DNA of 64,000 bases from Ceratodon purpureus (lineage: Eukaryota; Streptophyta; Bryopsida; Pseudoditrichales; Ditrichaceae). Below, piece by piece: positions 8,386-44,547 of the stretch. The notes beneath the pieces are model-generated. The model worked only from the letters and a program-made list of their open reading frames with translations, did not search any database and was not told the DNA's origin. The DNA lies in the NCBI GenBank assembly GCA_014871385.1, contig CM026433.1:13528023-13592022 (forward strand). Reading direction: 5' to 3'. Made by a program: the position numbers and the translations under genes. Position 1 is the first letter of the stretch, and every line of letters starts with the position of its first letter.

Positions 8386-8440
8386 ATCTGCGCTCACCGC
8401 TCTCCGCTCTGCGCTTTGCGCTCACGTACAAGCTACCCTC
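8386..8440 (-). repeat. Right terminal inverted repeat of the TIR element
   Basis: Inverted partner of 377-431. It keeps the GTACGTGAGCG core and the GAGCGGAGAGCGGTGAGCGC block. About 90 bp of extra sequence separates it from the inner GACCCTATAACCGTGGA motif compared with the left end. Confidence 0.85.
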
Positions 8441-8450
8441 TGCTCCGTAT
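8441..8450. repeat. Target-site duplication, right copy (TGCTCCGTAT)
   Basis: Identical to 367-376. The integrase frame continues with GGACAACTA directly after it. Confidence 0.9.
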
Positions 8451-9889: not shown

Positions 9890-12800
9890 TCTCCTATTTG
9901 TTTTCTTCATAACTCTTTTTGCAATGGTTTTACTGTTTGCACACTTCTTTGTTTCCATGCTTTCCCTCAACACTTGTCAATTGCTTACGCTTTTAAATTA
10001 CTTTTTATTACTTAAAGGAAATAAGTAATAAAAATGTGCAAACAAATGGGCCATTTTTGAAAGTTAGTTTTTCCATACCTTTCCAAAAAGTCATCTCATG
10101 CTTAAAAATTCCTCATACTTTTGGAGATATTCACAGTCAAAGTTTGAAAACACTATTTGAGATCTGCCCAAAACTGCCCAAACTGCGGTATATGCTCATT
10201 TATTCTAAAAAACTGCCTAAAATCAATTAAATTGCAGAAACTTCAAAAATTCACGAAAAATTGAGATTTTACTTTTTTTCAAGTTTTTTTTTTTTTTTTT
10301 TTTTTTTCAAAGTAAATAAGGTTTTAAGGCATGATCTCACCGATTGGATTTTTAATCCAATTATTCTTCACATGCCTTTCATATTGTCAAAGATTGGCTT
10401 TTGTAGTTGAATTTCAACATACATGTATGTGAATAATCAAGCATATCTTTAGGTTTTATAGGTTGTATGAGGGTAAAAATTGCAAAGGCATGTTCCTAAC
10501 TCACCTAAAAACAAGAATTTGAAGAGCCTCATATCAAATTTTTTATCAAGAATGGTTTTTTTGGCCCTCAAAAAACCAATTATCCTTTTTCAACAAGCAA
10601 TTATTATTATTATTATTATTATTTATTTTTTAATTTTTTTAATTTTTTTTTTCATCTTTAAACATTACGATCTCACATTTGGTAAGGAATTTGAATTTAA
10701 GATTTGACACACATATGCACATACAAGTTAGGTACAAGATCCTACGGTTTTATACTCGAAAATACATCAAAAATTAAAAATTTGCACCTTGCATTTAAAG
10801 AGGGCAGTTTTGAGGATTTTTTGCAATTTTGAGGGCATTTGACATTAGGGGTGAAGTAATTATAGAGAGGCTTTGATTCAACCCTTGAAGGCAATTAGCT
10901 CCAAAACAAAAACCCCAAGACGCACATGGTGCACAAAAAAGTTTTCAGGTGATCTACCCGTGTCTTGATCAATCATACTCATATAGAGCATGTACTAAAA
11001 ACATTATTATTGTCTATCAAAGGAGAGTTGTTTAGGAGCATGACCCATAGGTTGGCATGTATAAAATTTGGTAAGGCATATTTTGTGTTAGTAGGAAATC
11101 ATAAGAATGTCTGAGAATTCATTTGATAGTTTTCCATCAATGTCTTTTTTCAATGTTGATGGGCCAGAAGTATCCGTTCCAGCTCGGGTTGGTACCATAA
11201 TGTCTGGAACGTTCAGAGCTTAGGGAGATCCTAAGCGGCTCTTACAAAACCCTAAGCAACACGCACAGATCTCATCTCTTCCAGCACTCCGCTCTCGGAT
11301 GTCTGATCGGCGCCCCGCGGCTGCAACAAGTTTGTGGTTGTGGGTTTGGGTTAATGTTCTTTGTAGCGTATGTCGTGAGTTTTTTCCTTCAGCTTTGCTT
11401 TCTGGGGCGTGGTTTTGGAGTTTAGGTTTGGGTTACATGGCTGATGATTAAAGATGTATTTGCTACTCTTGATGGTTTCGGCCAGCTGATTAAACACAAT
11501 ACCACTAAGATCGATGAGGCTTAGGGATGCTGCTTTTGAGAGGTGTTGAAGGGAGTTGTTTCCAAACGAGTGGATTTGGTTTGGAACGGAGTTGGATCAT
11601 GTAGATGTCCTTGATGGGAGTGAGGGTTAATCTGCGTACAATGCACAATGCACCCCGGGCGGTTCTGAATATGAAGGACGAAATCGCCCTAAGCATGTGC
11701 AAGAACCTATCTTGCGATGCCGGTTGCAAAGCTGGCGTCGTGATGTCTGTCTCGTGTTACTTGCCTTATGCTTCTTCCATATTGCAAGCGTCAAAATGAG
11801 CAGATACATTCCTGTGTCTAGGGTTTTCCTGTTTGGTGCATTCTCTATGAAGATGACATTAGATGACGAATCTGAGTTTAAGGCGAGAGTGAAGGTAGTG
11901 GAACTGTCTATGCGATGTCTTATCGCATGGTTTTGCGAAGCTGCCGGATCTTTCTAACCGCTGGCTTGCCAGTTACTCTGATGCATAAACGAGGCATTTG
12001 TCTGAGAGAATCATCACATTACTTCAATATGGCCCAATGTTTTGCATGTAATTTTTAAGGTGTCCTACATTCTATCAAGGCGTCATCTTGTTCCACTACC
12101 CACTTGGAATTACTACAAAAGGAAGTTATACAGGAATGTGCGAATCCTGCCTCCAAAAAACGACACAACTGCCACCATAACTTGCAGAGGGAATTCTGTA
12201 ATCAAACATTTAACACCTTGAATCCAACCATGCATCCAGATTGTACACTAACAATGTTGCAGACTAGCAATCAATATAATGTACGTACAAATACGTACTG
12301 TGGCTGCCACTGCTGTCGATCACGGTTTATTCATACTAGTCGGGCTAGCAAGGGAGACCCTCTTGTGCTGGCTTACAGTGGTTACTCCCTGGGAAATACG
12401 TTCATTTCAATGAATGATTACTATCCCCACAAGTTTGATCTAGAGCTAACCTTCTGAACTAAAATGGAGGGAATTTTGGGAATGGCACTTTAACTCATCA
12501 TGAAAGAAAATTCTCGTACTTGAATCCATTCGTGCAGCAGCTCTTCCAGTGGATGGGGGGCAGTGATCGTCGGAACCACGACACATTTCCAAACAATAGT
12601 GACGCAAGAGAAGTCGATTAACATAGATTAAGATCCGAAAAGCTGCTCGTCGGCAATCTGATTTTATTGCGGTCACTCCTATGGGCTTATGATTTGAAGG
12701 GGCCTGCTTGTGTAGATTATCAAGTGACTGAAGGTGTTACTGAAGAAGGGGATGTACTGTATTGTGTAACTTATAACTAACAATTCTCGCGCTTATCCAA

Positions 12801-12912: not shown

Positions 12913-12984
12913 TGTGGCTGCTGGGATTCGAGCCCAGGTCTCCACGGCCACAACGTGGAATTCTGACCACTGAACTACAGCCAC
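12913..12984 (-). tRNA. tRNA-His (GTG)
   Basis: On the minus strand the 72-nt sequence folds into a cloverleaf: acceptor stem GTGGCTG/CAGCCAC, D arm with GTTCAGTGGTC, anticodon stem CCACG/CGTGG around loop TTGTGGC (anticodon GTG), and T arm GGGCTCGAATCCC. Acceptor A is at 12,913. The B box GCTCGAATCCC is canonical. A TTTT pol III terminator lies about six bases downstream (AAAA at 12,904-12,907 on the plus strand). There is no intron. The G-1 of tRNA-His is added after transcription. It looks intact and functional. Confidence 0.95.
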
Positions 12985-22550: not shown

Positions 22551-23207
22551 CTACATCGCCGGCATGAACCCCTTCTTGATCATCTTCGTCATGTCGTCCT
22601 TGATCCCGAATGCCCTCGACAGCACCTCGTCCTTGATCTCCGGGCTCGCGCCGAACAGCGCCGACGCCATCAGCTGCACTCCGGGGTTCTGCGCGTTCAG
22701 CACCGACACCGTCACGGCGTGCCCGCTGCCCACGTTCAGCTGGAAGTGCACCAGGCCCACCGGGAACAGGAAGAAGTCGCCCGTCTTCAGCTTCGCCGCG
22801 AACAGCTTCCCTGCCGTGTCCACGAACCCGACGTGCACCTCGCCCTTCAGCACCGTGATCACCTCCGACGCCCTGGGGTGCGTGTGGGGTGGCACCAGAC
22901 CGCCCTTGGCGTAGTTGAACTTGGCCAGGGACAGGCCCTGCGTGTTCAGCGCCGGGTAGTTCACGCCAGCGAACCCGGGGATGATGCCGATGCCCAGCGG
23001 GTTGTTGGTGTCGGCCGCAGCGCGGAAGCCCGTGAAGGAGAAGTCGTCGGACGTCACCATCGACGGGGCCTTGCAGGCCAAGCCATTGAAGAGGAGGGCG
23101 CTCTTCAGGTCCGCCACGCAGAAGTCGTTGATGGGACCAGCGTCGCCGGCGGCCACCACCGCGACCAGGAGAGCGAGCGCAACAAATCCGACAGTGAGCT
23201 TCGCCAT
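22551..23207 (-). CDS. Germin-like protein, secreted bicupin-fold Mn-binding apoplastic protein
   Basis: A single-exon frame of 218 residues, the usual length of the family. Residues 1-20 form a signal peptide (hydrophobic core GFVALALLVAVVAA). C30 and C45 match the conserved N-terminal disulfide pair. Germin box 1 (PPHTHPRASE) gives metal ligands H108, H110 and E115, and box 2 (FPVGLVHFQ) gives H154, so all four Mn ligands are present. Germins are oxalate oxidases, while many germin-like proteins, including one from the moss Barbula, have Mn-superoxide dismutase activity; which applies here cannot be read from the sequence. The gene is strongly GC-rich against AT-rich flanks. Long frames on the opposite strand (for example 22,419-23,222) are by-products of this GC bias. 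Confidence 0.95.
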   Translation of the reverse strand: MAKLTVGFVALALLVAVVAAGDAGPINDFCVADLKSALLFNGLACKAPSMVTSDDFSFTGFRAAADTNNPLGIGIIPGFAGVNYPALNTQGLSLAKFNYAKGGLVPPHTHPRASEVITVLKGEVHVGFVDTAGKLFAAKLKTGDFFLFPVGLVHFQLNVGSGHAVTVSVLNAQNPGVQLMASALFGASPEIKDEVLSRAFGIKDDMTKMIKKGFMPAM

Positions 23208-25833
23208 CTCGAAACGATGTAGATTGAGTGTAGTGACAAGTGCACTAATTCAGAAACAGCCCCTCTGAATTTAGATAGCGATCGACAGTGCGAGCAGCTA
23301 GTTCGATGTTGAGATCAGAATGTGCACTGTGGCTTTACAAGAGGTTCGAACGCGTTGAGTTTTGAATCCTCACGCAGTGACAGGTTCTCGCACATTCATG
23401 GTTTATCTTGCTGGTCGTCAATACCTTTTCAGTTACCTTAGGTTCGGCAGCTTCCGTGGCACTGTGGCAGTCGCGAGGATGAGCTGCTTCCGCAGCAGTA
23501 GAGAGCACCTCTAACTGTACAGTCCAGGGGATTACAAATTAGTGAGCTGACCTGAAAGGTGCGAATGTAATTCGACGAGGGTAAAGATGTCGGGGGATGT
23601 GAGGATGGGGTAACAAAGTCTGCATTCAGATCCAGTAGCCTATATTTGCCGATGGGTGATCATGCAGATATATTCGTGGTGACGATGCACCCCCAAGTTC
23701 GGTGACAGTTAAGAGCTACAGATCGACCAGCTGCAGCTTTTTGTTTTCTGGCGATCGGGATGATCGGGGCACCTTAATCATATTGTCCAAATAAGAGATG
23801 CTGCCCAGGTGCTTCGGAGGGGGTCCACCTATTGTTTTTTAAAGCTTCTTGGGACTGACTGAGGAGGCTTTGACTGAGGTTCAGGACTAAATATTGTCGT
23901 GGAGCGCGACGTCGACATGCTGTTTTCTCGGAGAAGAGTCGGGTAGTACTTGCAGATCATTATTCATGCGTATGTTCAGAAGTTGCATCATTGCATGATC
24001 GCTCGCTGCCTTTACAATGTGCAAGAGCACGTCTGATGAGCGGAGCCATGTTGACCCTGCCAACTTGTACGTTCAATAACTTTCAACGCACAATGCAGCG
24101 GGCTTCTTTGTGGTTTTTTGGGTAGAGGCTAGAGCTTGAACAGATTCTCAATCACAGTTGAATTCGAAAAGCAAGGCCACTTATCGAGGCCAAATAGTAT
24201 GCCCCCTCAGATGGCGATTTGTTAATGCAAATTTCAAGGTGAACTTATCTGTAACTTCTCAGGTCATGGGGAGGGCGTTGCTAATACGCTATGAAATTTG
24301 AATGCAGATAATTCATTCATACTCGCTCCCATTTGAAACACATATGTAATAACAGAAAATGAACTGTAAAACAGCATTGTCCATGGTAAGGTTTTGGATT
24401 TCGATCATGATTGCCTGCTACATAGAAGCTCATTCGTAATACCATAGAAATGACACAAACTGGAAGTAAAATCAGCATTCGTCTGAGTCTACGTCAATGA
24501 TTCAAATATTGGGGGAAAAAGTAATGGTTTTTTTTTAAGGAAATTTGGGATGACATCATAGTAATTCAACATTAGAGCGGGTAGTTGAACTACATTTTAT
24601 ATTTGTCATAAGTCTTTCTGAACATTTCTAGTACATGTATGTAAGTAGAAATTTGCACGATACCAAAGAATACAATAAAGAGAGCAAAAAACTTGTATCT
24701 TTCTGATTATTCAGATAATGATAACAATAAAGCCTAATGATTATGATGAGGTCTATTCTTAAACATGTTGCAATGATAATAGAAAGAATCAAGGTCTATG
24801 ATGGTCCAACAAGTATATACTCTTTTGCAGCTTGGCTTAAGCCTCCATTTCCAACTATTAATTTATACAATATTACAATTCTTGGAAAAACTACAAATAT
24901 TTACGCCATTGTCTTCTAAGCATTCGAATTTTTAGGGCTTTGTATCATTACCATTAATAATCCCTTCAATTAATATTTAACCCCTAAACTCCCAGACAAC
25001 CAAAATGTGGTCGCTAGCTATTTTGGGCAGGGTCCTACAGTGTCAAAAATAACTTTCAAGTTTTGAGTTTTTGCATGTGGATTCTCTAGGTCATTACGTA
25101 CATGCCAAACTTTGTTTCATAATATTTGGATATGTAACGCAAAAGTTATGAATGGTTGAAGGTAAAAAATCTCAACCCCGGCAACCACAAAAAATTTCAA
25201 TTATATTTTTAAAAATAATTAAAAATATCACCATTTTGTAGAGATTCATATTTAAATAGAATGCTTTGATTCATTCTATTCCAACAAGTGAGGTACAAGA
25301 TATGACAATTCATGTTATGCGGGTAGTTTGGTCAAGTCTTCATGAAAAAAAACTTTAAATGCTCATTTTGAATACAATTTTGACAATCTTTCAAAAATAA
25401 AAATTGGAAAAGTTTTTTTTTATGATCACATCATTTTTACCGTTGAAAGTAACGTTATCCACTTTTATGTGGATGTAGTTAGCAATTTAGTTTTCCTTGT
25501 ATTCTACAGTGTATTTAGATTTACATATCTTTTGAAGATGAAAATTTAAGTTTTTTCTTTTGATATTTTTTGTGTAGTTTCTCAAGTCATGAACTTATAT
25601 TAGAATATGGAGTTGACCATTTCAAATTTGTAAAGCATATTTTTTGAAAATTCATTAAAAGTGAGATTTCAGCTTTTTGAAGGATTATAAAAAACTTGTT
25701 TTTTAACTTTGAACATTACGATCTTGTAATTGGTGTTGTGTTTTTCTCTAAAATTTTGGAAAAGAATGTCTCAATAAGCTTAGCTATGAGATCCTACGGT
25801 TGAAATTGCAAAAACAGGCCATAAAATTGGGGG
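23208..25833. other. Intergenic region, no supported gene
   Basis: The first 400 bp hold the germin-like promoter on the minus strand; I see no unambiguous TATA box. From about 24,900 the sequence is AT-rich and includes the GAACATTACGATCT and GATCCTACGGTT repeat words also seen near 10,650-10,740. Confidence 0.55.
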
Positions 25834-29651: not shown

Positions 29652-32600
29652 GTAAACAATCATTCTCGACCTCTGCCTGAGTTATGCCATACGCTGAGCC
29701 TGGCCATGGATGTCCCGCTTACCCTTTGGGTTGAGGTATTCAACTAGAGAGTCGAGGTAGCTTCTAGGCTACGAAATCCGGCATTTACCTGCTCGGAATG
29801 TCCCAGGTCCGGTGTCTCACAATCCATCTCTACCGTTTCCTAATCACGGGGTATTTGCTTTTTTCTCATTCTGGTAAATAAGACTTAAAGCTCTCTCGCG
29901 AACCGCAGATGGAAGAGCCGAACTGTCGGTACACTTGGACCTGATGATTTAACCACGCCATGAGAGACTCTCCAATGCATCATTATTATAGAGAAAACAA
30001 TGAGACTTCATTCCGTTAGTTTTATCCAGAGTGTGATGAGCATTGATGACAGAGAATGACGTCATTAAATTGCATCTAGCTGTTATACTTTCATGCTTCG
30101 ATATAGAGGACGAGTCTGCATAGGACTCAATGTGTGAGTTGGTATGCTCAGAGCAATACTCTAAACAGCGCAGAGTTGGAAACATGTACTGCTTTGGGAG
30201 GGGGAATTCTGACGGATGTACCTGTGAGTTGTGCAAGGGGATCAGTGATGGGCAGCTCAAAGATTAAGCGTTCGAGGACGCCGGCTGCAAAGAGGCGAGA
30301 GCTGAGATTGGAGACTGCTCAGCGACGGGAGTTAGAGATACTCGAGCACGCTGAACAGGAGCGGCTTCGTGAACTGAGGTGAACTCGGATTGCACTCTAG
30401 TATAGGACCGTCAGCGCTTAAAGTTTAAGTGCAGCAGGATGACTCTACCGTGGTGTTTTTCAGAATTCCATTAGCTTTCACGTCTATGAGAAGGTAACAC
30501 ACATAACATCGCACTAATTTGAAATGTGGCTGGAACTTCGGGACCGAATTCCCTTCTGAGCAGAGCTGCGCAAGATCGGGAATACCGTCGCACCTGGAGG
30601 TCTCGTTCACGGACAAACGAGAACGACGGTGGCCTTGAAGATGGAGGCGAAGCAGGGCCTTCCGGGGCACAAGACAAGGACGTCTCCGGAGAGTTCGAGC
30701 AGTTGAATGAGGATTATGAAGTGGTCGACGGCGATACAGTGGAAAATGACGTGGGAGTGTCAGGCAGGGCAGAGTCCCTTCAGGGGAATGTGACGAGAGC
30801 TCAGAACACCGACTCGGGAGGACATACAGTTGATGAGGTTGACAGCGACAGTACCATTCTTCGCAACCGGAAGTGTTCATGGGGAGCTTCGAAGGGACTT
30901 AATTCTCTAATGCGCATCTTGGATGCTGGTTACTCAGAAGAGGAGAAGAGAAGTGTATTGGAGCGGTGTTTCTCTGATGAGTGCATCCGTGCCATTCACC
31001 CCAATTTATGTATGGCTGTTCAGAAGGTGCGCACAGTGGTCCCGCAGTTGGGACAGAGTCTGAGAGGTGCCTTGCAAACCATACGGTCCACAAGCATCGA
31101 AGGGAAGTCAAAGGTGAGAAATATTGTGCTGACGGCTGCCGTCTCCAAGGGCGAGTCTCAACGCATGATCTGCAAGGCATTAGGAGCCTCACGATATCTA
31201 GTTCGTAAAGCGTTCCAGCGACGTGCTCAGGTTGACGAAACAGGGGAGAATCTGTGGGCTGGGGGGAGCAGAAAAAGGCGGAGCGACTGTCTTAGTACAG
31301 AGGACCAGTCTGCAGTCCGTGGGTGGTGGGAGAGTGAGACAACTGTTTCACCCAACAAAAAAGACATCAAGAGGCGTCGGATTGGGGTCAAGGAGCACGA
31401 GACACATGCTACTCATTATTTGCAAGTGTCGCAGGTAAATGACATGGAAACCTTGCCACGTCCGAGTTTCATTAGGTTGTAGAGGAGTGAACGAGTTCGT
31501 GTATGTGGTTCCGAGTTTACTCTGTTCTCTGAGCATGCACGGAGTCTAAAAGGTTCCGTCCTGAGGCAATGCCTGAACAGTAGGGAGGCGCGTGCTACGT
31601 TGCCCTTTGTAGTGGAGAGGCTTCTCCTCGTACTGTGCAGTTAAGCAAATTCAAGATGAGCATGTGTATGACGGAGAGTGAGTCTCCTCAGGGGTCTCTT
31701 CTTGGGTCTTGGGACTGCTCTACCTCGTGCTCCTATGGACAGTGTCGATGGTTGCCGTCACGGATGCAATCACTGATTGGAAGCTCTGATCGCATCAAAG
31801 GGAGATGATGAAATTCGGAGCCGATGCGAAAATTTGTAAGTGAGGCTGTGAAACGACCCGGGGCAAGAATTCCACAAATGGAAGGATAGCCGGGAGTTTC
31901 TCAAATAGAACTTCGGGGTGAGAAGAAGTGGGATTTGGAGGACTGATAAGCCTAGAAAATAAATTTGAGATACGATTGATCTTTCACTGGCTGGGATTGC
32001 CACTGGCGACTAACGAGCCGAAATTCAGAACTAATTTGGAGGAAGGCTGCGAGCTCGGCAGCTGTTGGTGGACTCTGATTGGGTAATGGGGCGCAGAAAT
32101 AGATAGACTCCTAGGATGCTGAAGGATCGCAAGGGAGAGCATATTTCTCTAACGTCCGAGCGTCAGGGTACTAACAAGCGTTTCGGAATTCAGATGTACT
32201 GATGAAACAGGGGTAGAAATGGCGGATTCCGAACTGTTCAATAGCCTGACTGTTCTGTGACACCGACGATTCAGATGATTTCCGAAAGCCCCGTCTTGAA
32301 CGGACTCTCACCGGTACTCCGCTGGAGAAGAAGCCTGAACGCAAAGGTGACGGGATTTTAGGATGCCTGCATTTTAGTGAGTTAGTATGTCAGTCGCCTT
32401 AATGCTACTAATGCATTCTCTGTGAACATGTGCATATGGCAGCTGGAGTTTCACGCGAAATTTAGGGAGGCTAACGAGGAGAGGAAGGTGGGGCTCAGGG
32501 CGTTCGAGCTTCTGAAGCCCTTCTATGTCAGAAGGCTAAAGGAACGGAATACATGCGCTTGTCGCTACCATTGTGAGATTTCCGAGCTCAAGATTGGGTG

Positions 32601-32652: not shown

Positions 32653-32657
32653 GCTTG
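32653..32657. repeat. Target-site duplication GCTTG, left copy
   Basis: Repeated at 42,337-42,341. Collapsing the two restores the host reading frame as GCGCAC followed by EVCAAPG codons. Confidence 0.9.
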
Positions 32658-33434
32658 TGTTACCTGCCCAGACACCATGGCGAACAAGGAGCCGGGGAAC
32701 AGTAAATCCAAGACACGACAGGGAGTTAGGAGCAGTTACAAGGAGCCAAGGAGCAGAGCACCGTACCAAGTCGACAGAGGAAAACGGTGACACTAGTTGT
32801 GGCCACCGGAATTAGCGGATTAGCATAAAGTATAAAGCACAGTGTAGAAATCGTAGTGGGGACTTCTGGTTATGTTGTAGTTGCGGTGATTAGCTTTGTA
32901 CGAGCCAGACTCACAGCCGAGACCTTAAGTCATTTTCCCTCTCCTACTTGACTAGACTCACAGTGCTTAAATCTTGTATTCAGACTCTATGTCTCCCTCT
33001 TTTACTGAATACAAAGCAGTGTGCTAAAAGCTTTGGTTATGTACTCTGTCTGTTTGCTTACTATGAGTTTCATGAATGTCATTGTTTAGCACACCATAGG
33101 ATTGCTTGGAAGGACGCTTGCTTGCTCTGTTTTAATTGCCAAGGACTCCACGGCCTACCCGCCCTACTGCTGTGCTCGGACCTCGTAGTCCAGCCTCGGT
33201 AGTTGGCTGTCCAGGTCCTGAGACCCCAACCGCCATGGCTCCCTGAACGGTCTTATTCTTTTATATTTTTCCCCAAGCTAGTTCAGTCCCCCTTTAGTAA
33301 AATGTTCACTTAGTCGCCAGGTACTTTGATTCCTCGGCTGCCTTAGTCTCACCTAACCATCTAGAAAAACTACCTCCCTGCCCCTTTGGTTTACCCCTAG
33401 GTCTCAGAACTCCATCACAGAATCCCAGCCAACA
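32658..33434 (+). repeat. 5' LTR
   Basis: 777 bp, TG...CA ends. A TATA-like TATAAAG lies at 32,831-32,837, about 175 bp in. It matches the 3' LTR without gaps. Confidence 0.97.
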
Positions 33435-33436
33435 TT

Positions 33437-33455
33437 TTGGCGACCATGCTGGGGA
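33437..33455 (+). promoter_or_regulatory. Primer-binding site
   Basis: TGGCGACCATGCTGGGGA begins two bases after the 5' LTR. TGG at the start is complementary to a tRNA CCA end. The TGGCG...GGGGA pattern resembles the tRNA-Asp/Arg sites used by several plant Ty3/gypsy lineages; the exact tRNA is not determined. Confidence 0.65.
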
Positions 33456-33517
33456 TGGAAAGTTGAGATCCACGGGTAAATTGGACATCAAAAGGACCAC
33501 GTTCCAATACTATCACC

Positions 33518-36500
33518 ATGCCTCCCAGAAAATTGCCTCTCGAACGAATCAATGAAGCAGAAGATGCTTTGCAACAGGACGACCCTGACCCCACGAAAGA
33601 ATTGCTACAATTCTTAAAAGACCAAATGACAGCCTTGGCTGCCAGGAATGAAGCCACGAATGCCAAACTCGAAATGTTGAGTATGCAATATCAAAATCTC
33701 CATGGCTCAACCACAAATGCGGCAAATCACGCCACACCTACAGATTTGGAAGCACCCTTGGAGCCCTTGCGGTCCACTACTCTACCCAGAGAAAACCGCA
33801 CAGCGGCCACAACGCAGAGTGGGGGAGACCACGACCGAGTCACCAAGTTCCCCAAAATACCATACCCAGTGTTTGACGAGACCGGAGATCCCGACTGGCA
33901 CATACGGAGATTTAAAGTAATTGCTCGCACGAATGGTATACTGAGCTCCGTAGACCTGCAGAATATCTTCGGCACCACGCTCCAAGGAAACCACATTAAT
34001 TGGTATATAGACTTTGAGACAGATCACCCCCACGCCACCTGGGAAGACATGGAGCGGAGCTTCCTCCATAAATTCCGAAAATTAAAAACCAGCGCCGAGA
34101 TACTCCGCGCTTTAGGTAGTATCACTCAGGACAGAAATGAGCCTGTAGACAAGTTCTACGACCGCTTTAAACAATTATCAGACAAACTCAGCCAACGGCC
34201 CGAAGAAGACTACTTATGCGAATGGTTTAAAAAGGGACTATTGCCTTGGATACAGCAGGGAATAGTTATCCGTGGCGTTAAGACGTTGAGTGAAATACTT
34301 AACGCAGCAAATGACATTAGCCGAGAGCTTGGTGCTCTCAGTCGAACTCAGGCGCCGTTGCTGCCCCTACCGGTTTCGCGAACTGAGACCCGCCCCGCTC
34401 CTACGGTCTGCAGCACTTGCGGCAAGGTCCATAGTGGGCGCTGCTGGTTTGCGACAGGGATACCTAGGACGGACGATGCCCGGCGACCAAGGCCAACCAC
34501 TGCAGCCATGTATACCGAGGAAATTAATGTGGATGCCTTCCAACCTGGACGCAATGATACTTGTTGGGAGTGTGGGTCTCCTAACCATCGGAGGGGACAA
34601 TGCCCACAACTTCGACAACGCTGGGCTCAGCATTCCAGTAACCCAGAGCAACCTCGAGCCACGGCACCAACCATGGAACAACACAAAAACCCCATGCCCA
34701 ATCGTAGAGGAGGGGTGACTCTGACGGAAGTCCACGGCACCGAGACCAACGTCGCCACTATCAGTGCCGCCGCAGTCACCACCCGAGCCAAGGCTACCTT
34801 GGATGACCATGTCGTCGAACATCGGAAACCGTTTCCTACAGACCACTGGGACCGATTACACAACATTCGAAAGGACCTGCAAAGGGGCTTGGAAATGACC
34901 ACGATAAAACCTGACATACAACATATTTTGGAAGATACAAATGTAACCATTACTTTGTCCAAATTATTACAACTAAGCCCAGAACTCCAAAAGTATTTGC
35001 AACAGGCCAATACACCAGAATCCACGAACGATCCAACTGTCATCGAAGTCAATGCTACCACTTTGGACCCGGACGCCGCGGTTATACACTTACAACTGGG
35101 ACACCATGAGCTCACAAATGTGTTGGTCGATGGAGGCTCCGGAGTGAATGTCATGAGCGACCACTTACGAAGACACCTCGGATTACCTCAGCCCAAAACC
35201 GCCAAATTTATATTACGCATGGCCAACGACGACCCAGTTACACCCCTTGGTATTCTGGCCACTGTCGCCATTACCACCCATGGAGTGTCTACCCCTGCTA
35301 CCTTCGTTATCATCGACATGCCAAATAGCAGCAACTTTCCAGTCATCCTAGGACGACCTTGGCTCCGAGATATGAATGCTATTCATGATTGGTCTCGAAA
35401 CCAAATCCGCATACACCGCCAAGGCAAGACTGTAATCATACCGGTGGATAGCTGTATCACCAGAGCCAAGGCTGCCCAGATTCGCCACAGAGCCGGGACA
35501 AACTGGGTAAAGGGCCTGTCACAAGACCAAGAAACCTTGGTTCTCCACGCCAATCCTGATCTAATACCCCTGGCGGAAATTCACTTGGCCAGCTTGGTCA
35601 CAGCACCAGAAAAACTTGACCTGCCACCCCGGTTCTCCAAAGAAACACCAGGGACTGTTACCATCAACTCCACGCCAGCATTCCGCGCCCTGGAGAAAGA
35701 AGTCGTCACGGGCTGGACCCATGGTGCCAAAGAAACTGTAGAATTAGTAAACCTTGGCACCAAGGATAACCCTAAGTTCATAAAAATCAATGCCGATGCT
35801 CCAATTGATATCAAGACAGAAGCTATAGCATTGTTTCATGAATACCAAGATATATTTGCTTGGAACCATGAAGACCTCAAAGGCATACCCAAGACATTAG
35901 CTGAGCATACTATCGACTTGGTGCCCAATGCCACCCCTGTCCAGCAGCGGCGTTACCGTATGAATCCAAATTATGCTTCTCGAGTCAAAGAGGAATTGGA
36001 CAAGTTACTCAAAGCAAAATTTATTTCCCCCGTCGATGCGGCACCATGGCTGTCTCCCATGGTTATCATTCCTAAAAAAAACGGCGCACTGCGCATTTGC
36101 GTGGATTTTAGGAAACTCAATGCGGCCACCAAGAAGGATCACTATCCCTTACCATATATGGAAGAAATCATAGACGAGGTTGCCGGTCACGAAATGTACT
36201 CCTTCCTTGACTGTTTCTCAGGGTATTACCAAGTCGCCATGGCCGAACAAGACAAAAACAAGACGGCCTTTTCTACGGAGTGGGGACCATACCAATTCGA
36301 ACGAATGCCGTTTGGAGCCAAAAATGCTCCCATGACTTTCCAAAGAGTTATGGAACTCATATTCCGTCCGTACCTAAAACGGTTCTTTAGAATCTATTTG
36401 GATGATGGTACCGTTTATGGACAAATGAAAAACCATGTCGCCCATCTTCGGCAAATCTTCGATGCATGCAGAGCTAACGGTGTCAGCTTGAATGCCGACA

Positions 36501-39500
36501 AATGCATGTTTTTATTTTTTGCCGGGGTAATCCTTGGTTACATTGTCTGCAAATATGGCAAATTGCCTGACCCTTCCAAGATCAAGGACATCTTGGACAT
36601 GACACCACCCAAGGACCAAAAGGGTGTGCAACGCCTCCTAGGACTTTCACAGTTCAATAGGATATATATCGAAAAATTGGCGCACATCACTGCCCCAATC
36701 ACTGCACTCAACCATGCCAAGTACTCCTACCCAAAAGATTGGACACCAGCGGCACAGGAAGCCTTGGAAAAAATCAAACTGGCGTATTCTAATGCCCCGA
36801 TCCTCATTGCCCCAGACTGGACCAAGCCTTTCCACGTCCACACCGACGCATCTAACCTCGCCGTGGGAGTAATGTTAGCTCAAAATCTAAACGGTAAGCA
36901 CGATCAACCTGTAGCTTATGCCAGTAGACTACTCAACCAAGCCGAACGCAATTATTCCACGACCGAGAGGGAAGCTCTGGCTATGATATATGCAGTGAAA
37001 AAATTTCGACACTACCTATTGGGCAATAAGTTCAAGTTCATGGTCGATCATCATAGTTTATCATACTTAGTAAATCAACCATTAGTTACAGGCAGAGTAG
37101 CCCGATGGATAATGATACTATTGGAATATGATTTTGAAGTAGTATACATACCTGGCAAACGCCACATTGTCGCAGATTACTTGTCCAGGGATACCACTAC
37201 CACCGAGGAGGGTATCGATGACTCCTTTAACGAGCTGTACATCCAAGCTGCCGCACTAACCATCCAAGATCACAATGATTGGACCAGTGAAATAGTGCGC
37301 TACTTGACCACTGGGGTCACACCTCCACACCTCACAGGAACTCGGAAGATCAGTTTTGTAAGGACAACCTTGCCCTATACAGTGGTCCACGGACAGCTCT
37401 ATCGCCGCGGCCCAGACCATGAGGTCCGGCTATGTGTACCGACCACCCAGCAAAAGCAGATCATCACTCATCTCCACGATGGACCCGCCGGTGGTCACCA
37501 AGGCCCTGATACTACCATCAAGAAAATAATGATGGCAAAGTACTGGTGGCCCACACTCCACCGCGACGTCCACGCCTACGTCAAAAGTTGCCATGCATGC
37601 CAGGTATCGACCACGAATTTTCGATATCAAGGGAAGGTTCCTCTAAAATCCATACCTCCTTTGGGACCATTCCAAAGATGGGGTTTAGATTTCATTGGCC
37701 CCATACGCCCTGCAACGCGCCAAGGTTACAAGTATATTTTGGTCGCCACTGACTACACAACCAAATGGGTTGAGGCTAAGCCTCTTCGCAATAACACCGC
37801 GGTGGTCACGGCATCCTTCCTGTATGATAACATTATCACCCGGTTTGGGTGTCCACTAGAGATCGTGTCTGACCAAGGCACACACTTCGTCAACGCCGTC
37901 ATCGAGGACCTCATGGAAAAACATGTAATCAAACACCGTACTAGTACAGTGTACTATCCTCAAGGAAACGGACAAGCGGAGTCCACCAACAAGACTATTC
38001 TAAACATGCTCCGGCGTTTCATCCACGCCAACCAAGCGGACTGGGACGACTGCCTTCCGGCTGCACTCTGGGCGTATCGTGTTGCGACCAAAACAGCCAC
38101 CAATCTCAGCCCATTTGAGATGGTCTATGGGACACAGCCACTGTTACCCACGGAGTACATCGCCCCGACGTTCCAATCCACGAACCCTCGCGAATACTCT
38201 CCACACAAAGTATTAGCTGCACGTATCCAAGACATACATCACTTGGAAGAAATCCGTGCCCTGGCAATCAAAAACATCACCGATGGCCAAGCACTTAGAG
38301 CAAAATATTTTCAAGCCTCGCAACCAGCCCGCCTGTTCCACAAAGGCGACCAAGTTTTGTGGTGCCCGAGGGACCCAAAAATCCGCAAAACTAAGTTCGA
38401 ATCCATCTGGTATGGGCCATACCGTGTTCAATTAGTATTGCCCAACAACACCGTGCTACTGGTTAACAACGAATATTACGACACTCATGCCACTATAGTT
38501 AATTCAAATAAACTCAAACAATATCATACCACGGAGGACCAAGTTATCCCCAAACTCAGTTTAGGAGAAATTCATACTAACCTGGCCCTTGAAGCCCAGA
38601 CCTTGACGGACTCGATACCCGCCGATGATCCCATGCCCGCCATGGACGATACCCCTGCACCCGTCCCAACCTCATTACCAGATATCCATGTCAGTCATAT
38701 CCGTGTAGAGGTATGCCCCATGAAACTCTCGAACCAGGGTATCTACCCCGGGTATGAACCATGTCTTGGGACATCGCCACTACCCCATCCCATCAACTGT
38801 CAAAACGGTTTTGGCAAGTCAAATCATCCAAGTTGTCGCGAACGCCATGATCACCTAGTACCACCGACTGTCCAGCAGTCTCAAGTGATTTTACAACACC
38901 ATCAACTCAGTCGCCATGGATGCCCAGCTCAACCTCTAACTTACTCCCACTACTCCCAAGCTGCTCAAGGAAATCATGGACAGCAAGCACATCACCGCGT
39001 CTTCCATCCCATCGCGCATCACCAGCTCCACAATCCTAGGTCCCAGCCGCCATGTTCCTCGGCCAGTCTACCCAAACCCGGCCCACTCGTCACATCCTCT
39101 TCTCACCCATCCTGTCACACCTTGCGGATCACTCGAGGCCAGCCGCCAGAGAGTTTCCTTCTCCTCCCTCCTCCCAGCTCCTACCCCTTGTGTGTGGAGC
39201 GCTCCATTGTGTTTCGCAACTTCTTTCGCTCCAGTTCTCTCAGTCTCCGCGTAGTCCATCTCTTGTTTCGTGAGCTCCAGCATTCTGCTAGTCTCGTCTT
39301 ACACACCATGGAGAGCAAAAAGGTTGATGGCCCCATCTACCTCCCTCGCATGGTGCGCGAATGGAAGCGGAAGACCGATGGCGCCTGGCTCACCAGGACC
39401 AACCTCATCAAATACTGGACCCGTATAGATGGCAATGTTGACGTTGCGCGCTGCCAGGCATTCTTGACGTCCATGGCGACCCGGAGCGAAGAGGAGCAGT

Positions 39501-41515
39501 TTCCAGCCGGCATGGTGGACGGGATACTGGTTCAGTACTCCCCGCGCTATCTCCACGCCTTTTTCGGCTGGGACGGAACGGGGGTTACAGAATGGAACTC
39601 GGAATGTGCCACACCAAGACCGAACATCGCCGAGGCAGTTGGGGACGTTCAACCTCAACCCGATGGAAGGTATGACGTATACGCTTTGGGCAGTGCTTTG
39701 CAGGAGCCGTGGTTCGCTAGAATGAGGGGGATTCTTAGTCAAGTCTATTTTAAAAATGATTGTAATCGAATCCATCCTGATCACCTGAGCGTACTTCTCC
39801 TCGCGGACCGAGGCGAGAAAATCAACTGGGGGTTGATTGTAGACGACAGTTTTCGAGTACAGCTCCGTGGCCACCGACGACGCCCGGATTATCAGAGTCC
39901 TATCGGCCCCTTCCTGACCCAATACATCACGAAGTTCCTAGCCTATCATCGCACCCACCATCAGCCCCCATTGATGGGCACTCTGCTGGACGTTCAGCGC
40001 GAGATGGCGGCCATGGCAGCCAGGGATGCCGCGGCTCCAGGTCCCAGTAAGCGGCCGCGACCCTCAGACCCTGCGCCACAAGAAGGAGGGGAGATTAGAA
40101 CCACATACGGCCCGCACGCCAAGGAATTCCAAGACCAGAGCCTGGAGATGGCCAACTGTGTTAAACGCATGCTCCAAACAATTCACACCATGGAGCAGGA
40201 GACGATCGCAGCAGCAGCGTCTCAGGGAGGATTTGAGGACCGTGTCAAGAGGAAGACAGCAAAAGCAATCCAGGCCGCGCAACTCCAAGCCAAACAGACG
40301 TTGGGAGAGATCCGAGAAGAATTTCGCATACAGCTTGGGGAGGCGAATCAAACTGTCGCCAATTTCAGGAATCAAGTCGCCAATCTGGAGTTGGAGCTAA
40401 CCACTGCTCGTGAACAAGTGGATGCCGTGGACAAGGCCAAGACTCTGGCTGAGGAGCGCGCACAGCGGCTAGAACAGCAGAATGCCGAGGCATTAGCACG
40501 TTGCAAGACCTTGAACGAGGCATTGGCACACAGCACCAGACCAACAGCCATGGAGCCAGGAGCTGCAGAAGAAATCGCCAAGCTTCAACAGGTTCGTACC
40601 GAGACCGAAAACGCCAAGGCAAATTTCGAGATCAACAAGATTAACTGGGTTCAGAATGCTGCAACACTCATAGCCACACATGCATATCGTATGCTGTGGG
40701 AAAACCCGGCGTCCTCGGCAGTCCCCCCGCAGCAATTCCTAGACACCTGCATTGATGCGGCTATGGTAGACTTGGACCTCGAACAGTCGGAGAATGCGTG
40801 GGATTTTGATATGATGGCCATCGAAGCCATAGGCCAAGAAACCGACGACATAGAGGAAAACAGGGACGTACCAGCAGCAGACCCCCTCGCACACCCAGCC
40901 CAAGTCATCCAGATCCAAGTACCTACCTTGTCATTGGAGCCCAACGAGCAGCCGGATCGGGTACACATCCCAGATGTCCCTACCGACACGGACGATACAC
41001 CCCATACCTCGCCTCGGCTGCTGGAAGCTGCACCAATTTCACCAAGAGCTCCTGCACCAGCCAGCCATGCCGGACCAAGTCAGCCAAATTCAGGGGTACG
41101 CACCCAACTCAAATCATTCCGAGAACATAAACTTGCTTTACAATCATTGGAAGCCGAATATGAGATGGAAGGAGATGGTAGTGAAGATAGTGATGCAGAG
41201 GAAGAGTCTGAGATAGCAATTACAGAGGTCAAGAAGTATTTTGCTGCTCACCCAGACTTGGTAAATCGCTACGCTAACCCTGAGGCAGATAACGTACAAT
41301 GTCCTGCCTGCAACAAATTGTTGGGCAAGACTGTATTTGATATATACCAACATGCCCGAACTTACAGGTCCAAGCATAATCTGCTACACCGTGGAGTCGC
41401 TGCAGCCATAGCGGCCATCTATGGTGACCAAGATCCTCCTCGGCGCCACACTCAGGTCCCGCGTGAGGAAACTCGCCCCGACAGACGACCTGCAGGCCGC
41501 AGAACCCGCCGCTAA
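33518..41515 (+). CDS. Gag-Pol polyprotein with a coiled-coil and zf-XS-like C-terminal extension (2,665 aa)
   Basis: In order: retrotransposon gag region (residues ~120-260); a CX2CX3HX3C knuckle (CSTCGKVHSGRC) and a canonical CCHC knuckle at 349-362 (CWECGSPNHRRGQC); aspartic protease with D538 in VDGGSG; reverse transcriptase ~780-1010 with YLDD at 960-963; RNase H with HTDAS and TEREALA; integrase HHCC from H1320; catalytic D1391, D1452, E1488 (D60D35E). The GPF/Y-like linker is near 1,640 (WYGPYRV). Residues ~1,700-1,930 are a Pro/Ser/His-rich linker that looks non-coding in composition. A methionine at 1,931 (39,308) opens a 735-residue extension: a globular part (REWKRKTDGAWL), a coiled coil at ~2,240-2,350, an acidic part, and a zinc finger from C2595 (CPACNKLLGK, YQHAR) followed by a helix rich in Ala. 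The extension could be made as a fusion or as a separate protein from 39,308. No stop or frameshift is seen in 8 kb. Confidence 0.93.
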   Translation: MPPRKLPLERINEAEDALQQDDPDPTKELLQFLKDQMTALAARNEATNAKLEMLSMQYQNLHGSTTNAANHATPTDLEAPLEPLRSTTLPRENRTAATTQSGGDHDRVTKFPKIPYPVFDETGDPDWHIRRFKVIARTNGILSSVDLQNIFGTTLQGNHINWYIDFETDHPHATWEDMERSFLHKFRKLKTSAEILRALGSITQDRNEPVDKFYDRFKQLSDKLSQRPEEDYLCEWFKKGLLPWIQQGIVIRGVKTLSEILNAANDISRELGALSRTQAPLLPLPVSRTETRPAPTVCSTCGKVHSGRCWFATGIPRTDDARRPRPTTAAMYTEEINVDAFQPGRNDTCWECGSPNHRRGQCPQLRQRWAQHSSNPEQPRATAPTMEQHKNPMPNRRGGVTLTEVHGTETNVATISAAAVTTRAKATLDDHVVEHRKPFPTDHWDRLHNIRKDLQRGLEMTTIKPDIQHILEDTNVTITLSKLLQLSPELQKYLQQANTPESTNDPTVIEVNATTLDPDAAVIHLQLGHHELTNVLVDGGSGVNVMSDHLRRHLGLPQPKTAKFILRMANDDPVTPLGILATVAITTHGVSTPATFVIIDMPNSSNFPVILGRPWLRDMNAIHDWSRNQIRIHRQGKTVIIPVDSCITRAKAAQIRHRAGTNWVKGLSQDQETLVLHANPDLIPLAEIHLASLVTAPEKLDLPPRFSKETPGTVTINSTPAFRALEKEVVTGWTHGAKETVELVNLGTKDNPKFIKINADAPIDIKTEAIALFHEYQDIFAWNHEDLKGIPKTLAEHTIDLVPNATPVQQRRYRMNPNYASRVKEELDKLLKAKFISPVDAAPWLSPMVIIPKKNGALRICVDFRKLNAATKKDHYPLPYMEEIIDEVAGHEMYSFLDCFSGYYQVAMAEQDKNKTAFSTEWGPYQFERMPFGAKNAPMTFQRVMELIFRPYLKRFFRIYLDDGTVYGQMKNHVAHLRQIFDACRANGVSLNADKCMFLFFAGVILGYIVCKYGKLPDPSKIKDILDMTPPKDQKGVQRLLGLSQFNRIYIEKLAHITAPITALNHAKYSYPKDWTPAAQEALEKIKLAYSNAPILIAPDWTKPFHVHTDASNLAVGVMLAQNLNGKHDQPVAYASRLLNQAERNYSTTEREALAMIYAVKKFRHYLLGNKFKFMVDHHSLSYLVNQPLVTGRVARWIMILLEYDFEVVYIPGKRHIVADYLSRDTTTTEEGIDDSFNELYIQAAALTIQDHNDWTSEIVRYLTTGVTPPHLTGTRKISFVRTTLPYTVVHGQLYRRGPDHEVRLCVPTTQQKQIITHLHDGPAGGHQGPDTTIKKIMMAKYWWPTLHRDVHAYVKSCHACQVSTTNFRYQGKVPLKSIPPLGPFQRWGLDFIGPIRPATRQGYKYILVATDYTTKWVEAKPLRNNTAVVTASFLYDNIITRFGCPLEIVSDQGTHFVNAVIEDLMEKHVIKHRTSTVYYPQGNGQAESTNKTILNMLRRFIHANQADWDDCLPAALWAYRVATKTATNLSPFEMVYGTQPLLPTEYIAPTFQSTNPREYSPHKVLAARIQDIHHLEEIRALAIKNITDGQALRAKYFQASQPARLFHKGDQVLWCPRDPKIRKTKFESIWYGPYRVQLVLPNNTVLLVNNEYYDTHATIVNSNKLKQYHTTEDQVIPKLSLGEIHTNLALEAQTLTDSIPADDPMPAMDDTPAPVPTSLPDIHVSHIRVEVCPMKLSNQGIYPGYEPCLGTSPLPHPINCQNGFGKSNHPSCRERHDHLVPPTVQQSQVILQHHQLSRHGCPAQPLTYSHYSQAAQGNHGQQAHHRVFHPIAHHQLHNPRSQPPCSSASLPKPGPLVTSSSHPSCHTLRITRGQPPESFLLLPPPSSYPLCVERSIVFRNFFRSSSLSLRVVHLLFRELQHSASLVLHTMESKKVDGPIYLPRMVREWKRKTDGAWLTRTNLIKYWTRIDGNVDVARCQAFLTSMATRSEEEQFPAGMVDGILVQYSPRYLHAFFGWDGTGVTEWNSECATPRPNIAEAVGDVQPQPDGRYDVYALGSALQEPWFARMRGILSQVYFKNDCNRIHPDHLSVLLLADRGEKINWGLIVDDSFRVQLRGHRRRPDYQSPIGPFLTQYITKFLAYHRTHHQPPLMGTLLDVQREMAAMAARDAAAPGPSKRPRPSDPAPQEGGEIRTTYGPHAKEFQDQSLEMANCVKRMLQTIHTMEQETIAAAASQGGFEDRVKRKTAKAIQAAQLQAKQTLGEIREEFRIQLGEANQTVANFRNQVANLELELTTAREQVDAVDKAKTLAEERAQRLEQQNAEALARCKTLNEALAHSTRPTAMEPGAAEEIAKLQQVRTETENAKANFEINKINWVQNAATLIATHAYRMLWENPASSAVPPQQFLDTCIDAAMVDLDLEQSENAWDFDMMAIEAIGQETDDIEENRDVPAADPLAHPAQVIQIQVPTLSLEPNEQPDRVHIPDVPTDTDDTPHTSPRLLEAAPISPRAPAPASHAGPSQPNSGVRTQLKSFREHKLALQSLEAEYEMEGDGSEDSDAEEESEIAITEVKKYFAAHPDLVNRYANPEADNVQCPACNKLLGKTVFDIYQHARTYRSKHNLLHRGVAAAIAAIYGDQDPPRRHTQVPREETRPDRRPAGRRTRR

Positions 41516-41559
41516 ATGGCAAACCAGGGACGGTTTGCACTCTGCAAAAACCGGCAAAA

Positions 41560-42336
41560 TGTTACCTGCCCAGACACCATGGCGAACAAGGAGCCGGGGA
41601 ACAGTAAATCCAAGACACGACAGGGAGTTAGGAGCAGTTACAAGGAGCCAAGGAGCAGAGCACCGTACCAAGTCGACAGAGGAAAACGGTGACACTAGTT
41701 GTGGCCACCGGAATTAGCGGATTAGCATAAAGTATAAAGCACAGTGTAGAAATCGTAGTGGGGACTTCTGGTTATGTTGTAGTTGCGGTGATTAGCTTTG
41801 TACGAGCCAGACTCACAGCCGAGACCTTAAGTCATTTTCCCTCTCCTACTTGACTAGACTCACAGTGCTTAAATCTTGTATTCAGACTCTATGTCTCCCT
41901 CTTTTACTGAATACAAAGCAGTGTGCTAAAAGCTTTGGTTATGTACTCTGTCTGTTTGCTTACTATGAGTTTCATGAATGTCATTGTTTAGCACACCATA
42001 GGATTGCTTGGAAGGACGCTTGCTTGCTCTGTTTTAATTGCCAAGGACTCCACGGCCTACCCGCCCTACTGCTGTGCTCGGACCTCGTAGTCCAGCCTCG
42101 GTAGTTGGTTGTCCAGGTCCTGAGACCCCAACCGCCATGGCTCCCTGAACGGTCTTATTCTTTTATATTTTTCCCCAAGCTAGTTCAGTCCCCCTTTAGT
42201 AAAATGTTCACTTAGTCGCCAGGTACTTTGATTCCTCGGCTGCCTTAGTCTCACCTAACCATCTAGAAAAACTACCTCCCTGCCCCTTTGGTTTACCCCT
42301 AGGTCTCAGAACTCCATCACAGAATCCCAGCCAACA
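41560..42336 (+). repeat. 3' LTR
   Basis: 777 bp. The sequence just before it (GCAAAAACCGGCAAAA) is a poor polypurine tract, unlike the clean one in the chromovirus at 9.6 kb. Confidence 0.97.
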
Positions 42337-42341
42337 GCTTG
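42337..42341. repeat. Target-site duplication GCTTG, right copy
   Basis: Identical to 32,653-32,657. A 5-bp duplication is standard for Ty3/gypsy integrases. Confidence 0.9.
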
Positions 42342-44547
42342 CGAAGTGTGCGCTGCTCCGGGGTCTGTACAGACGCAGCCTGTGGAGGGTGCGATCACAT
42401 GCCATTCTCATCTCACTCACTTTACAGGATTAACTGACATGTGGCATAGTGTTCTTTGCCCGGTACAGGCGGACGGCTGGCATTCACCGGATTGCATCAA
42501 GGGTAAATGCGGCAGTTGTGGGGTTGACATGCTACAGTTATGCCCGAGGGAAGCGGATGATAGCATTCCGCTCAAGATGCAATGGCATAACTTTGAGATG
42601 GTGGTCCACGGGACGACTCGGGAAGGAAAAGAGAACAAAGTTCTACGCATGAAATACCAGACGACGGGAGCGCCAACCTTTGTGGAATATCTGAAGCCGA
42701 AGTTGGAGGCCTTCATTGTTCACAATTATATAGCAAAATGGCAGGCCGAGCAATTCAAGGTATCCATTGATACTTTCCCCCCCGATTCCATCCTTTCAGC
42801 TGTGGATTTCGCTGAAAATTATACTTTTCAGCCTTACCACGAGCTGCAATCAATGCACTGGTTGCAGCATCAGATCACTATCCTTGTTCATATCTGCTAT
42901 CGGTGGAATCCGATATACCTTGCGGACCGAAGTTCAGGGGCACAAAAGCTCCTGACAGAATATCACTATTATATTAGTGATGCCCCCGAACATGATACAC
43001 TATTCGTTTAGCACTGCTTCGCGTTACACTGGAAACACATCACTGACAGGGGCATCAAACCAAACGAGCATATTGTCTGGTCTGACGGATGTGCAGCGCA
43101 GTTCAAATCTAGGAGGTGCTGGTACCATGTCTCAAGGTATCCTTATTTCTACTCTTGTCCAGATTGTTCCGTGTCATTTCGGTCATATTTGTTTCAACAT
43201 GTGATTCTCAGTTTTCAACGACTTTACTTTTATAATGATTGTATTTTTAGGTATCCCTCTACAACTGTGATGCCCGGGCTGCCAAACGGATGTCGGATGG
43301 TGTGGTCGTACTTCGGGAGTGGACACGGGAAGGGGCTCCATGATGGAGCAGGTGCAATGCTGAAATGTGCAATACGCAGTGAGGAAATGAATTTAGACTC
43401 CAGGACCAAACTACAGACCGCTAAAGATGTGGTCGGCTTCTGCAAGAGGAAGGAGCTTGAGGAGCACCGCGCGTATGGGAAGGTTCGTAGGACAGTCATC
43501 AGATATTTTCATTTGATTGAGCCCAATGCAGTGGACAGGGGTCGAGATCTGGATTGCCAGCCCATACCAGGGACCAGATCCGTTCATTCTGTTTCTTCAG
43601 TGTCACCGTCAAATGTTACATATTTGCATATCAGAGCGCTTGCGTGTTTCTGTCCGGAATGTATGGATGACAATCCCATGCTTTGTACGCGACAAGACCA
43701 CGTGCGGCACTGGGCTCTGAAAGTGTTGCAGCCACTGACGCCAATTCCAGTGAGAGTCCTTCTTTCTCGGTTTCATTCTGTGCTTATCGTTTTCTATTGA
43801 GAAAGGATGTGTGCGCCAATTTATGAGGGTGCTTTGCAGTAGGTGACACGCCCCACGATTCCTCTTTGTAAATGCACAATACAGAGTACTGACGTTGCCG
43901 CGCACGTCCGGTGCATGTACGTCACTTCGCAGCTCGCCTGCAGGGGGGCTCGTTTCCAAAGAGCGGGTGAACACACTGGAGAGACATCGTCTACTCCCGA
44001 AGTTCCCCTCTGCAGCGATGAAGTTGCGCGTGTGGATTCCGCTACTGAACCTGCGGATGTGCTCGACAGAGGCCCAGCTGGAAGGGATGCAGAATTTGAT
44101 GATGACCTGATTGACGAGGGCGAGGACGAACCGGACTTGGAATCAGAGGCCCAGCGAGTGGAGACTGGAGACACATATGTGGTGTACACTGATAGACCTG
44201 AGCATGGCGACAGATTTTTCCTTGTCCTATGTGACATGCCCGTGCACGTCAATGACGCTACATTTACAGACGGTTGGGGATGCACATGGCCGAAGGATAC
44301 CATGCTCATTAGCGGGACATACTACCGCCGGCTTCCAAGTGTGGGGCGAGATGCGGGTTCGTTCCGGTATGAGCTCCTCGAGGACGAGCCTAAGGCATGG
44401 AACTACTCCCACCTCGTGGTGCAGTCCAACGTGGACTTGGTGCAATACAAGAGCAACAAGCGGAATCCACGCTTCAAGATGGCGGCAGAGACTCGTGAGG
44501 AGATCCTCTCCAACGTGGAAGAGCGCCAATCTTATAATGCTCACTGA

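Follow-up and report, generated by a model that had tools for sequence, protein, structure and literature searches.

A conserved accessory protein with an SGS3-like zinc finger in a moss Ty3/gypsy retrotransposon

A Ty3/gypsy LTR retrotransposon of the moss Ceratodon purpureus carries an extension fused in frame behind its integrase, and the conservation of this extension and the selection acting on it identify it as a genuine, selected accessory protein of the lineage. Near its C-terminus lies a zinc finger for which profile comparisons support shared descent, or close likeness, with the zf-XS finger of SGS3, at a level short of the family threshold. The leading reading is that the extension protein may bind RNA or silencing factors. 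Positions refer to the window, which is the whole stretch of DNA analysed (64,000 nucleotides), and the features of the element are listed in Table 1.

The two LTRs are identical at 776 of 777 bases and lie within an exact 5-bp target duplication. Near-identical LTRs indicate a recent insertion, which bears out the claim of an earlier note on this DNA that the copy moved recently. A single open reading frame (33518-41515, + strand, 2665 aa) is open from gag through integrase into the extension, and the 735-residue in-frame region that the note had described after integrase is present, beginning at M1931 (position 39308). Retrotrans_gag, RVT_1, RT_RNaseH, Integrase_H2C2 and rve are found above their Pfam cut-offs in the gag-pol part, with aspartic-protease families below theirs. 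The LTR pair, the target-site duplication, gag, and RT-RNase H ahead of integrase place the element in Ty3/gypsy. A chromodomain is absent from the 12 Pfam families reported (E up to 1) in the 1930-aa gag-pol part, and the element is not a chromovirus as judged by a chromodomain after integrase. The sequence of the candidate primer-binding-site region is common to 9/9 leaders compared, the window among them, with one base altered in one copy.

Table 1. Coordinates of the element and its parts in the window
Feature	Position	Strand	Remark
Ty3/gypsy LTR retrotransposon	32653-42341 (TSD to TSD)		Ceratodon purpureus window
Target-site duplication GCTTG, 5' copy	32653..32657	no strand	
5' LTR, 777 bp	32658..33434	+	1 mismatch vs 3' LTR
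Primer-binding-site region (candidate), TTTTGGCGACC...	33435..33458	+	
gag-RT-RNase H-integrase part of the single ORF	33518..39307	+	linker at its end
Linker, 190 codons before the extension	38738..39307	+	pyrimidine-rich, open in frame
Extension (accessory ORF), 735 aa	39308..41515	+	TAA stop at 41513-41515
N-terminal domain of extension	39308..40012	+	weak PF20167 Transposase_32 likeness in relatives
KRPR, NLS-like motif	40049..40060	+	14/14 aligned copies
Predicted long helix, taken as a coiled coil (residues 270-406 of the extension)	40115..40525	+	AlphaFold model
SGS3-like finger, C2595 C2598 H2612 H2624	41300..41389	+	C-x2-C-x13-H-x11-H
Basic C-terminal tail, last 25 residues	41438..41512	+	
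3' LTR	41560..42336	+	
Target-site duplication GCTTG, 3' copy	42337..42341	no strand	

Elsewhere in the window, a second gypsy integrase ORF (8319-9602) is 31.7% identical over 259 residues to that of the element, and its C-terminus reads like a chromodomain. A SNORD24-like snoRNA (11439-11521), a tRNA gene (12913-12984) and an ORF at 22551-23249 (- strand), presumably encoding a germin-like protein, were also observed. ORFs on the + strand flank the element (30523-31482 and 42259-44547), and its insertion site may lie inside a gene or a different transposon.

The extension was sought in related elements, as the earlier note had proposed, and is present in 11 protein relatives as well as in many genomic copies. 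A search of a 5.8-billion-protein set returned 10 relatives at 41-66% identity, and a profile added one more (P0011). Fusion to integrase is not an accident of the window copy, because P0001 starts within the integrase C-terminal region and P0011 has integrase domains in the same frame. At least 63 stretches of the moss genome itself (362,488,568 bases, 151 contigs) match the extension, a lower bound because 61 of 1170 candidates were scored. Eighteen of the 63 have no internal stop and lie within an open frame of 2568-2706 aa, in frame with gag-pol; the others are partial, broken or in shorter frames. Contig C6 (110.5 Mb) holds 25 of the matches, some of them pieces of one copy. The in-frame extension is thus not a product of chance.

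Selection was measured among the 30 best loci (L006-L035). In 17 of them the extension is uninterrupted for 730 residues or more; 14 of these are also open through all 498-500 upstream codons and were used for pN/pS. Ratios were pooled over the 77-83 of 91 pairs whose pS was 0.05 or higher, and it should be noted that synonymous sites are mostly saturated and the pairs not independent, so that the following values carry that caveat: integrase C-terminus 0.077, finger 0.091, tail 0.143, N-terminal domain 0.197, pre-finger region 0.206, helix following the coil 0.270, coil 0.275, residues 2166-2200 0.407, disordered region 0.434, junction 0.559 and linker (residues 1741-1930) 0.814. Where pairs allowed correction, median omega was similar in the finger (0.036) and the N-terminal domain (0.037). 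Five close pairs give small counts, one of them (L025-L027) having a coil ratio of 1.16. Purifying selection on the extension, one of the note's expectations, is evident in pooled ratios of 0.09-0.43 vs 0.81 in the linker, and neutral evolution, which the note had named as grounds for rejecting its idea, is contradicted by constraint that is strongest in the finger and the N-terminal domain. These results bear directly on the possibility that the extension has no function, being a passenger or read through by chance: a relaxed linker and many broken genomic copies would be compatible with it, but the difference in pN/pS argues strongly against it, as do the divergent relatives and the number of genomic matches, and its probability is negligible.

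The start of the extension is also conserved. Its initial Met occurs in 15/15 further copies (L036-L050), 11 of which are open over everything upstream examined. No in-frame stop occurs in the 190 codons before the ATG in 14/14 copies, which were chosen as open, nor before the ATG in the 12 copies covered out of the 15 further ones; the other two forward frames of the same 190 codons contain 2-11 stops, with 5.3-6.0 expected from composition. In 14 of 15 representatives among L006-L050, a TAG falls within the roughly 20-nt bin that precedes the ATG (window 39286-39307), compared with 0-7 representatives per bin in 24 bins further upstream; since the representatives share ancestry, these are not 14 independent events. 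Bins 20 to 240 nt upstream of the ATG are 56-74% pyrimidine. The TAG after this stretch is possibly a conserved 3' splice site, and together with the conserved ATG it makes spliced expression possible; no conserved donor was found among four GT patterns sought in 9 leaders. Splicing of a gene between pol and the 3' LTR is described for Bagy2 in a portion of PMC7264820. The protein could possibly have a dual expression: as the tail of the polyprotein, as a separate product started at the conserved ATG of a spliced RNA, or in both ways.

From its start, the extension consists of the N-terminal domain, KRPR, the long coiled coil, a disordered stretch, the finger and the basic tail. The globular domain and long coiled coil proposed by the earlier note both have counterparts in an AlphaFold model (mean pLDDT 61.9), which predicts an N-terminal domain of mixed structure, a helix spanning residues 270-406 of the extension, a low-confidence stretch at 493-600 and a finger with two helices. 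The predicted helix would correspond to the coiled coil expected of an SGS3-like protein, and KRPR may act as a nuclear localization signal. In 5 of 10 relatives (P0002, P0003, P0007, P0008 and P0011), PF20167 (Transposase_32) matches the same place below its cut-off of 45 bits, the best match being P0011 (17.5 bits, E 0.0039); these sub-threshold matches are collinear and start at profile position 13. Pfam scans of the window's own extension, with E up to 1 and up to 10, gave no PF20167 match. This pattern would fit a distant relationship of the N-terminal domain to the plant-transposon Transposase_32 domain. The protein database also lists PF28159.1 for P0004 alone, a family that is not among the Pfam-scan matches for that protein.

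The C-terminal CPxC finger described by the earlier note is present in the translation, its motif beginning at C2595 (position 41300) as QCPACNK...YQHARTYRSKHNLLHRGVAAAIA. All four ligands (C2595, C2598, H2612 and H2624) are invariant in 14/14 genome copies and in 9/9 sequences of alignment A2, the window being in both sets, and they recur in 15/15 further copies (L036-L050, about 51% identity) when these are anchored on the second Cys. The CPxC proline varies among relatives. The fingers of P0007 and P0008 have diverged to CLCC instead of CPAC and lost the middle His (H2620 in the window), with the ligands kept. In the extension model the finger helices span 676-685 and 691-704, with histidines at 682 and 694; in a model of SGS3 (mean pLDDT 61.5) helices span 237-248 and 253-269, with histidines at 243 and 255. 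In both models the first His is the seventh residue of helix 1, and the second His is the fourth residue of helix 2 in the extension and the third in SGS3, so that the AlphaFold comparison suggested by the note places the two histidines alike in both predicted structures. No PDB chain matched the SGS3 sequence (P0012) with E up to 0.01. In classical C2H2 fingers both histidines lie within one helix, and the H-x11-H spacing differs from the classical one.

Pfam does not recognize the finger as zf-XS (PF03470, curated cut-off 22 bits). None of 7 isolated fingers matched that family in a scan with E up to 10, in which HMMER filters discard most matches above about 0.1 and in which an Arabidopsis SGS3 finger matched at 2.8e-13. 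Likewise, zf-XS was not found in P0002-P0011 (E up to 3) or, with E up to 10, among the matches listed for the window's extension (25 of 73 families over 11 members). By the Pfam criterion, then, the finger would fall outside PF03470. The XS (PF03468) and XH (PF03469) domains, which the earlier note had named for the Pfam check, went undetected in the window's extension (E up to 1 and up to 10) and in P0002-P0011 (E up to 3). For the 7 isolated fingers, no C2H2 family rose above its Pfam cut-off and no BED match was listed. An HMM built from SGS3 alone ranked the window first (E 0.019) and P0001 second (0.089), with shuffled sequences interleaved among the remaining members, which counts against kinship with SGS3.

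Profile-profile comparison gave a different result. An SGS3 query returned 761 proteins, of which the best 120 were kept, and a finger was obtained from each of the 120. A ten-sequence retrotransposon profile reached 69.7% against these fingers (E 4.2e-5, score 26.3), a longer profile 54.4%, and the swap of query and template 64.2%; global alignment yielded 16.8-21.1% with the ten-sequence profile and 6.5% with its longer counterpart, which counts against the likeness. The ten-sequence score was not reached by any of 300 shuffles that kept the C, C, H and H columns fixed (best 21.4) or by any of 200 full shuffles (best 19.2). With 28 unique retrotransposon fingers, picked by motif and open frame, the values were 74.7% (E 2.6e-5) against SGS3 and 90.7% (E 1.3e-6) against 20 SGS3 and five host zf-XS fingers together, these hhalign E-values being for a single comparison and becoming about 0.6 and about 0.03 when multiplied by 24,736 Pfam families; the zf-XS comparison is a test of one class named beforehand. 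All four ligands align with those of the SGS3 finger, and the CxxC, the HA and the second His line up with those of SGS3 fingers to a degree that the ligand pattern does not account for. When 17 whole extensions were compared with 31 whole SGS3 proteins, the first local alignment ran finger to finger (score 38.8, 18.8%, E 0.0012) and the second coil to coil (26.0). A 77-column cut reached 81.0%, equalled by 0/300 shuffles (best 28.7). The stretch upstream of the finger alone was no better than shuffles (77/200 as good).

Single fingers separate in the same way. Thirty of 30 SGS3 fingers (every fourth of the 120) score 18.7-27.6, and nine of nine other zinc fingers score 9.2-15.2; the nine are six plant or yeast fingers and three from the element's own gag and integrase. 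Since the six C2H2/U1 controls score 9.2-15.0, the finger does not appear to be of the classical C2H2 or U1 class. The host's five zf-XS fingers pass the Pfam cut-off and score singly 8.9-20.7, overlapping the control fingers; compared with these five alone, the retrotransposon fingers show a weak likeness (28.7% for the ten-sequence and 23.6% for the 28-finger profile). By this profile measure the retrotransposon finger appears closer to SGS3, because the host zf-XS fingers reach only 27.0% against SGS3. In 5/5 of these host fingers (L001-L005) a Ser occupies the position of SGS3's second Cys of CPxC. The zf-XS identity put forward by the earlier note thus stands in part: the likeness to SGS3 fingers holds against the controls, but a Pfam zf-XS match was not obtained.

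The extension is a conserved accessory ORF and not a captured SGS3 gene. Because the finger resembles that of SGS3, there may be an interaction between the element and the silencing machinery directed at it. Our preferred explanation, held tentatively as possible and short of probable, is that a protein made of the N-terminal domain, the coiled coil and the SGS3-type finger and tail binds RNA or an SGS3/RDR6-type partner and so acts against siRNA amplification. Such a protein would oligomerize through its coil, by analogy with the IDN2 coil, which is essential for homodimers according to part of PMC3342958, and its finger and basic tail would bind RNA or the SGS3/RDR6-type partner. An element-encoded protein that has a coil together with a finger like that of SGS3 could tie up the RNA or protein partners of SGS3, and the element RNA would thereby be shielded from siRNA amplification or diverted within it. 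A more specific version seems to us rather doubtful. In it, the finger of this moss Ty3/gypsy lineage was taken from SGS3 or has a common ancestor with the SGS3 finger, and constraint as strong as that on integrase has preserved it so that the element can disturb or redirect the SGS3/RDR6-dependent amplification of siRNAs from its transcripts. As background, excerpts of PMC5907777 describe the finger as characteristic of functional SGS3, and SGS3 as needed for moss tasiARF production and present in charophytes; in an extract of PMC3935573, IDN2/FDM are plant dsRNA-binding proteins and the role of the zf-XS finger still awaits characterization.

The main rival holds that the finger belongs to the ordinary nucleic-acid-binding fingers of Cys2His2 type and reached the SGS3 spacing by convergence, and that the extension is a general RNA chaperone or packaging factor working with Gag, with no role in silencing. 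The basic tail and the failure of Pfam to report zf-XS are consistent with it, as are weak, mostly knuckle-sized Pfam matches (ZNF512_C2HC, E 0.009; Zn_ribbon_9, 0.012; zf-Vps39_C, 0.02; c-SKI_SMAD_bind, 0.07, in P0007) and a best PDB sequence match to Ski (E 1.1). We regard it as unlikely, since the SGS3 profile scores exceed those of ligand-preserving shuffles, SGS3 fingers outscore the nine others and the histidine spacing is not the classical one. It is less probable still that the extension is a factor for nuclear targeting or integration, whose NLS-like KRPR, coil and finger substitute for a chromodomain and bring the pre-integration complex to chromatin. The retention of KRPR in every aligned copy, the fusion in frame after integrase and the lack of a reported chromodomain in gag-pol would suit such a targeting factor, but conservation is lost in the linker that follows integrase, and the conserved ATG points to a protein that could be made separately. 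Even more improbable is an env-like third gene expressed from spliced RNA for cell-to-cell movement or particle assembly. The location between pol and the 3' LTR and the TAG near the ATG after a pyrimidine-rich stretch, in light of Bagy2 splicing, lend themselves to this explanation, whereas the want of a conserved donor among the four GT patterns sought in 9 leaders and the helices and disorder of the AlphaFold model speak against it.

Plant LTR elements often have accessory ORFs of unknown role, and the present one can be linked, in a specific and testable way, to an identified silencing factor; its lineage combines many open copies with a strong signature of selection. Should the finger act on the SGS3 pathway, this would reveal how a retrotransposon counters host siRNA amplification and help to explain the persistence of accessory ORFs. 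If the antagonist reading is true, the element would be a plant retrotransposon that is inherited and brings its own antagonist of silencing.

Among known systems, SGS3 shares with the extension a C-x2-C and H-x11-H finger, HA and HR motifs, histidines in successive predicted helices and a predicted long helix read as coiled coil. It combines zf-XS, XS and a coil, whereas in the element the finger follows the coil, lies below the zf-XS cut-off and is joined to gag-pol, and no XS is reported. The RdDM proteins IDN2/FDM also have a coiled coil and a finger of related type, but the element is without a reported XS or XH and shows weak likeness to the host's zf-XS fingers that do not look like SGS3. 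The Phygy/Selgy non-chromoviruses of Physcomitrella and Selaginella, compared by description from part of PMC6317226, likewise have no chromodomain and belong to non-seed plants; they differ in being short, with a polyprotein that takes up almost all of the internal region. Gypsy elements of orchids that carry an AlkB m6A demethylase domain (a portion of PMC9289625) resemble the moss element in that a host-type RNA-regulation domain is fixed in Ty3/gypsy, but the domain is another one, and its activity was demonstrated there. That survey of 121 angiosperm genomes found 15 extra domain types, and its section on them names ArgoL2 and no zf-XS. In the open-licence literature, zf-XS together with retrotransposons yielded one paper, PMC11178574, which concerns root development. 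Plant LTR elements that carry an accessory ORF downstream of pol and ahead of the 3' LTR are described in parts of PMC7264820 and PMC11728184, the latter likening sunflower accessory proteins to DRBM proteins on predicted structure. The comparison extends to Transposase_32 proteins and the accessory ORFs of plant LTR elements such as Athila, Tekay and Grande, which share an extra conserved ORF in many copies of a plant Ty3/gypsy family and, for the Transposase_32 proteins, a weak, sub-threshold collinear PF20167 similarity in relatives; the ORF described here differs from them in being fused in frame behind integrase, in occurring in a moss, and in combining a coil with an SGS3-like finger.
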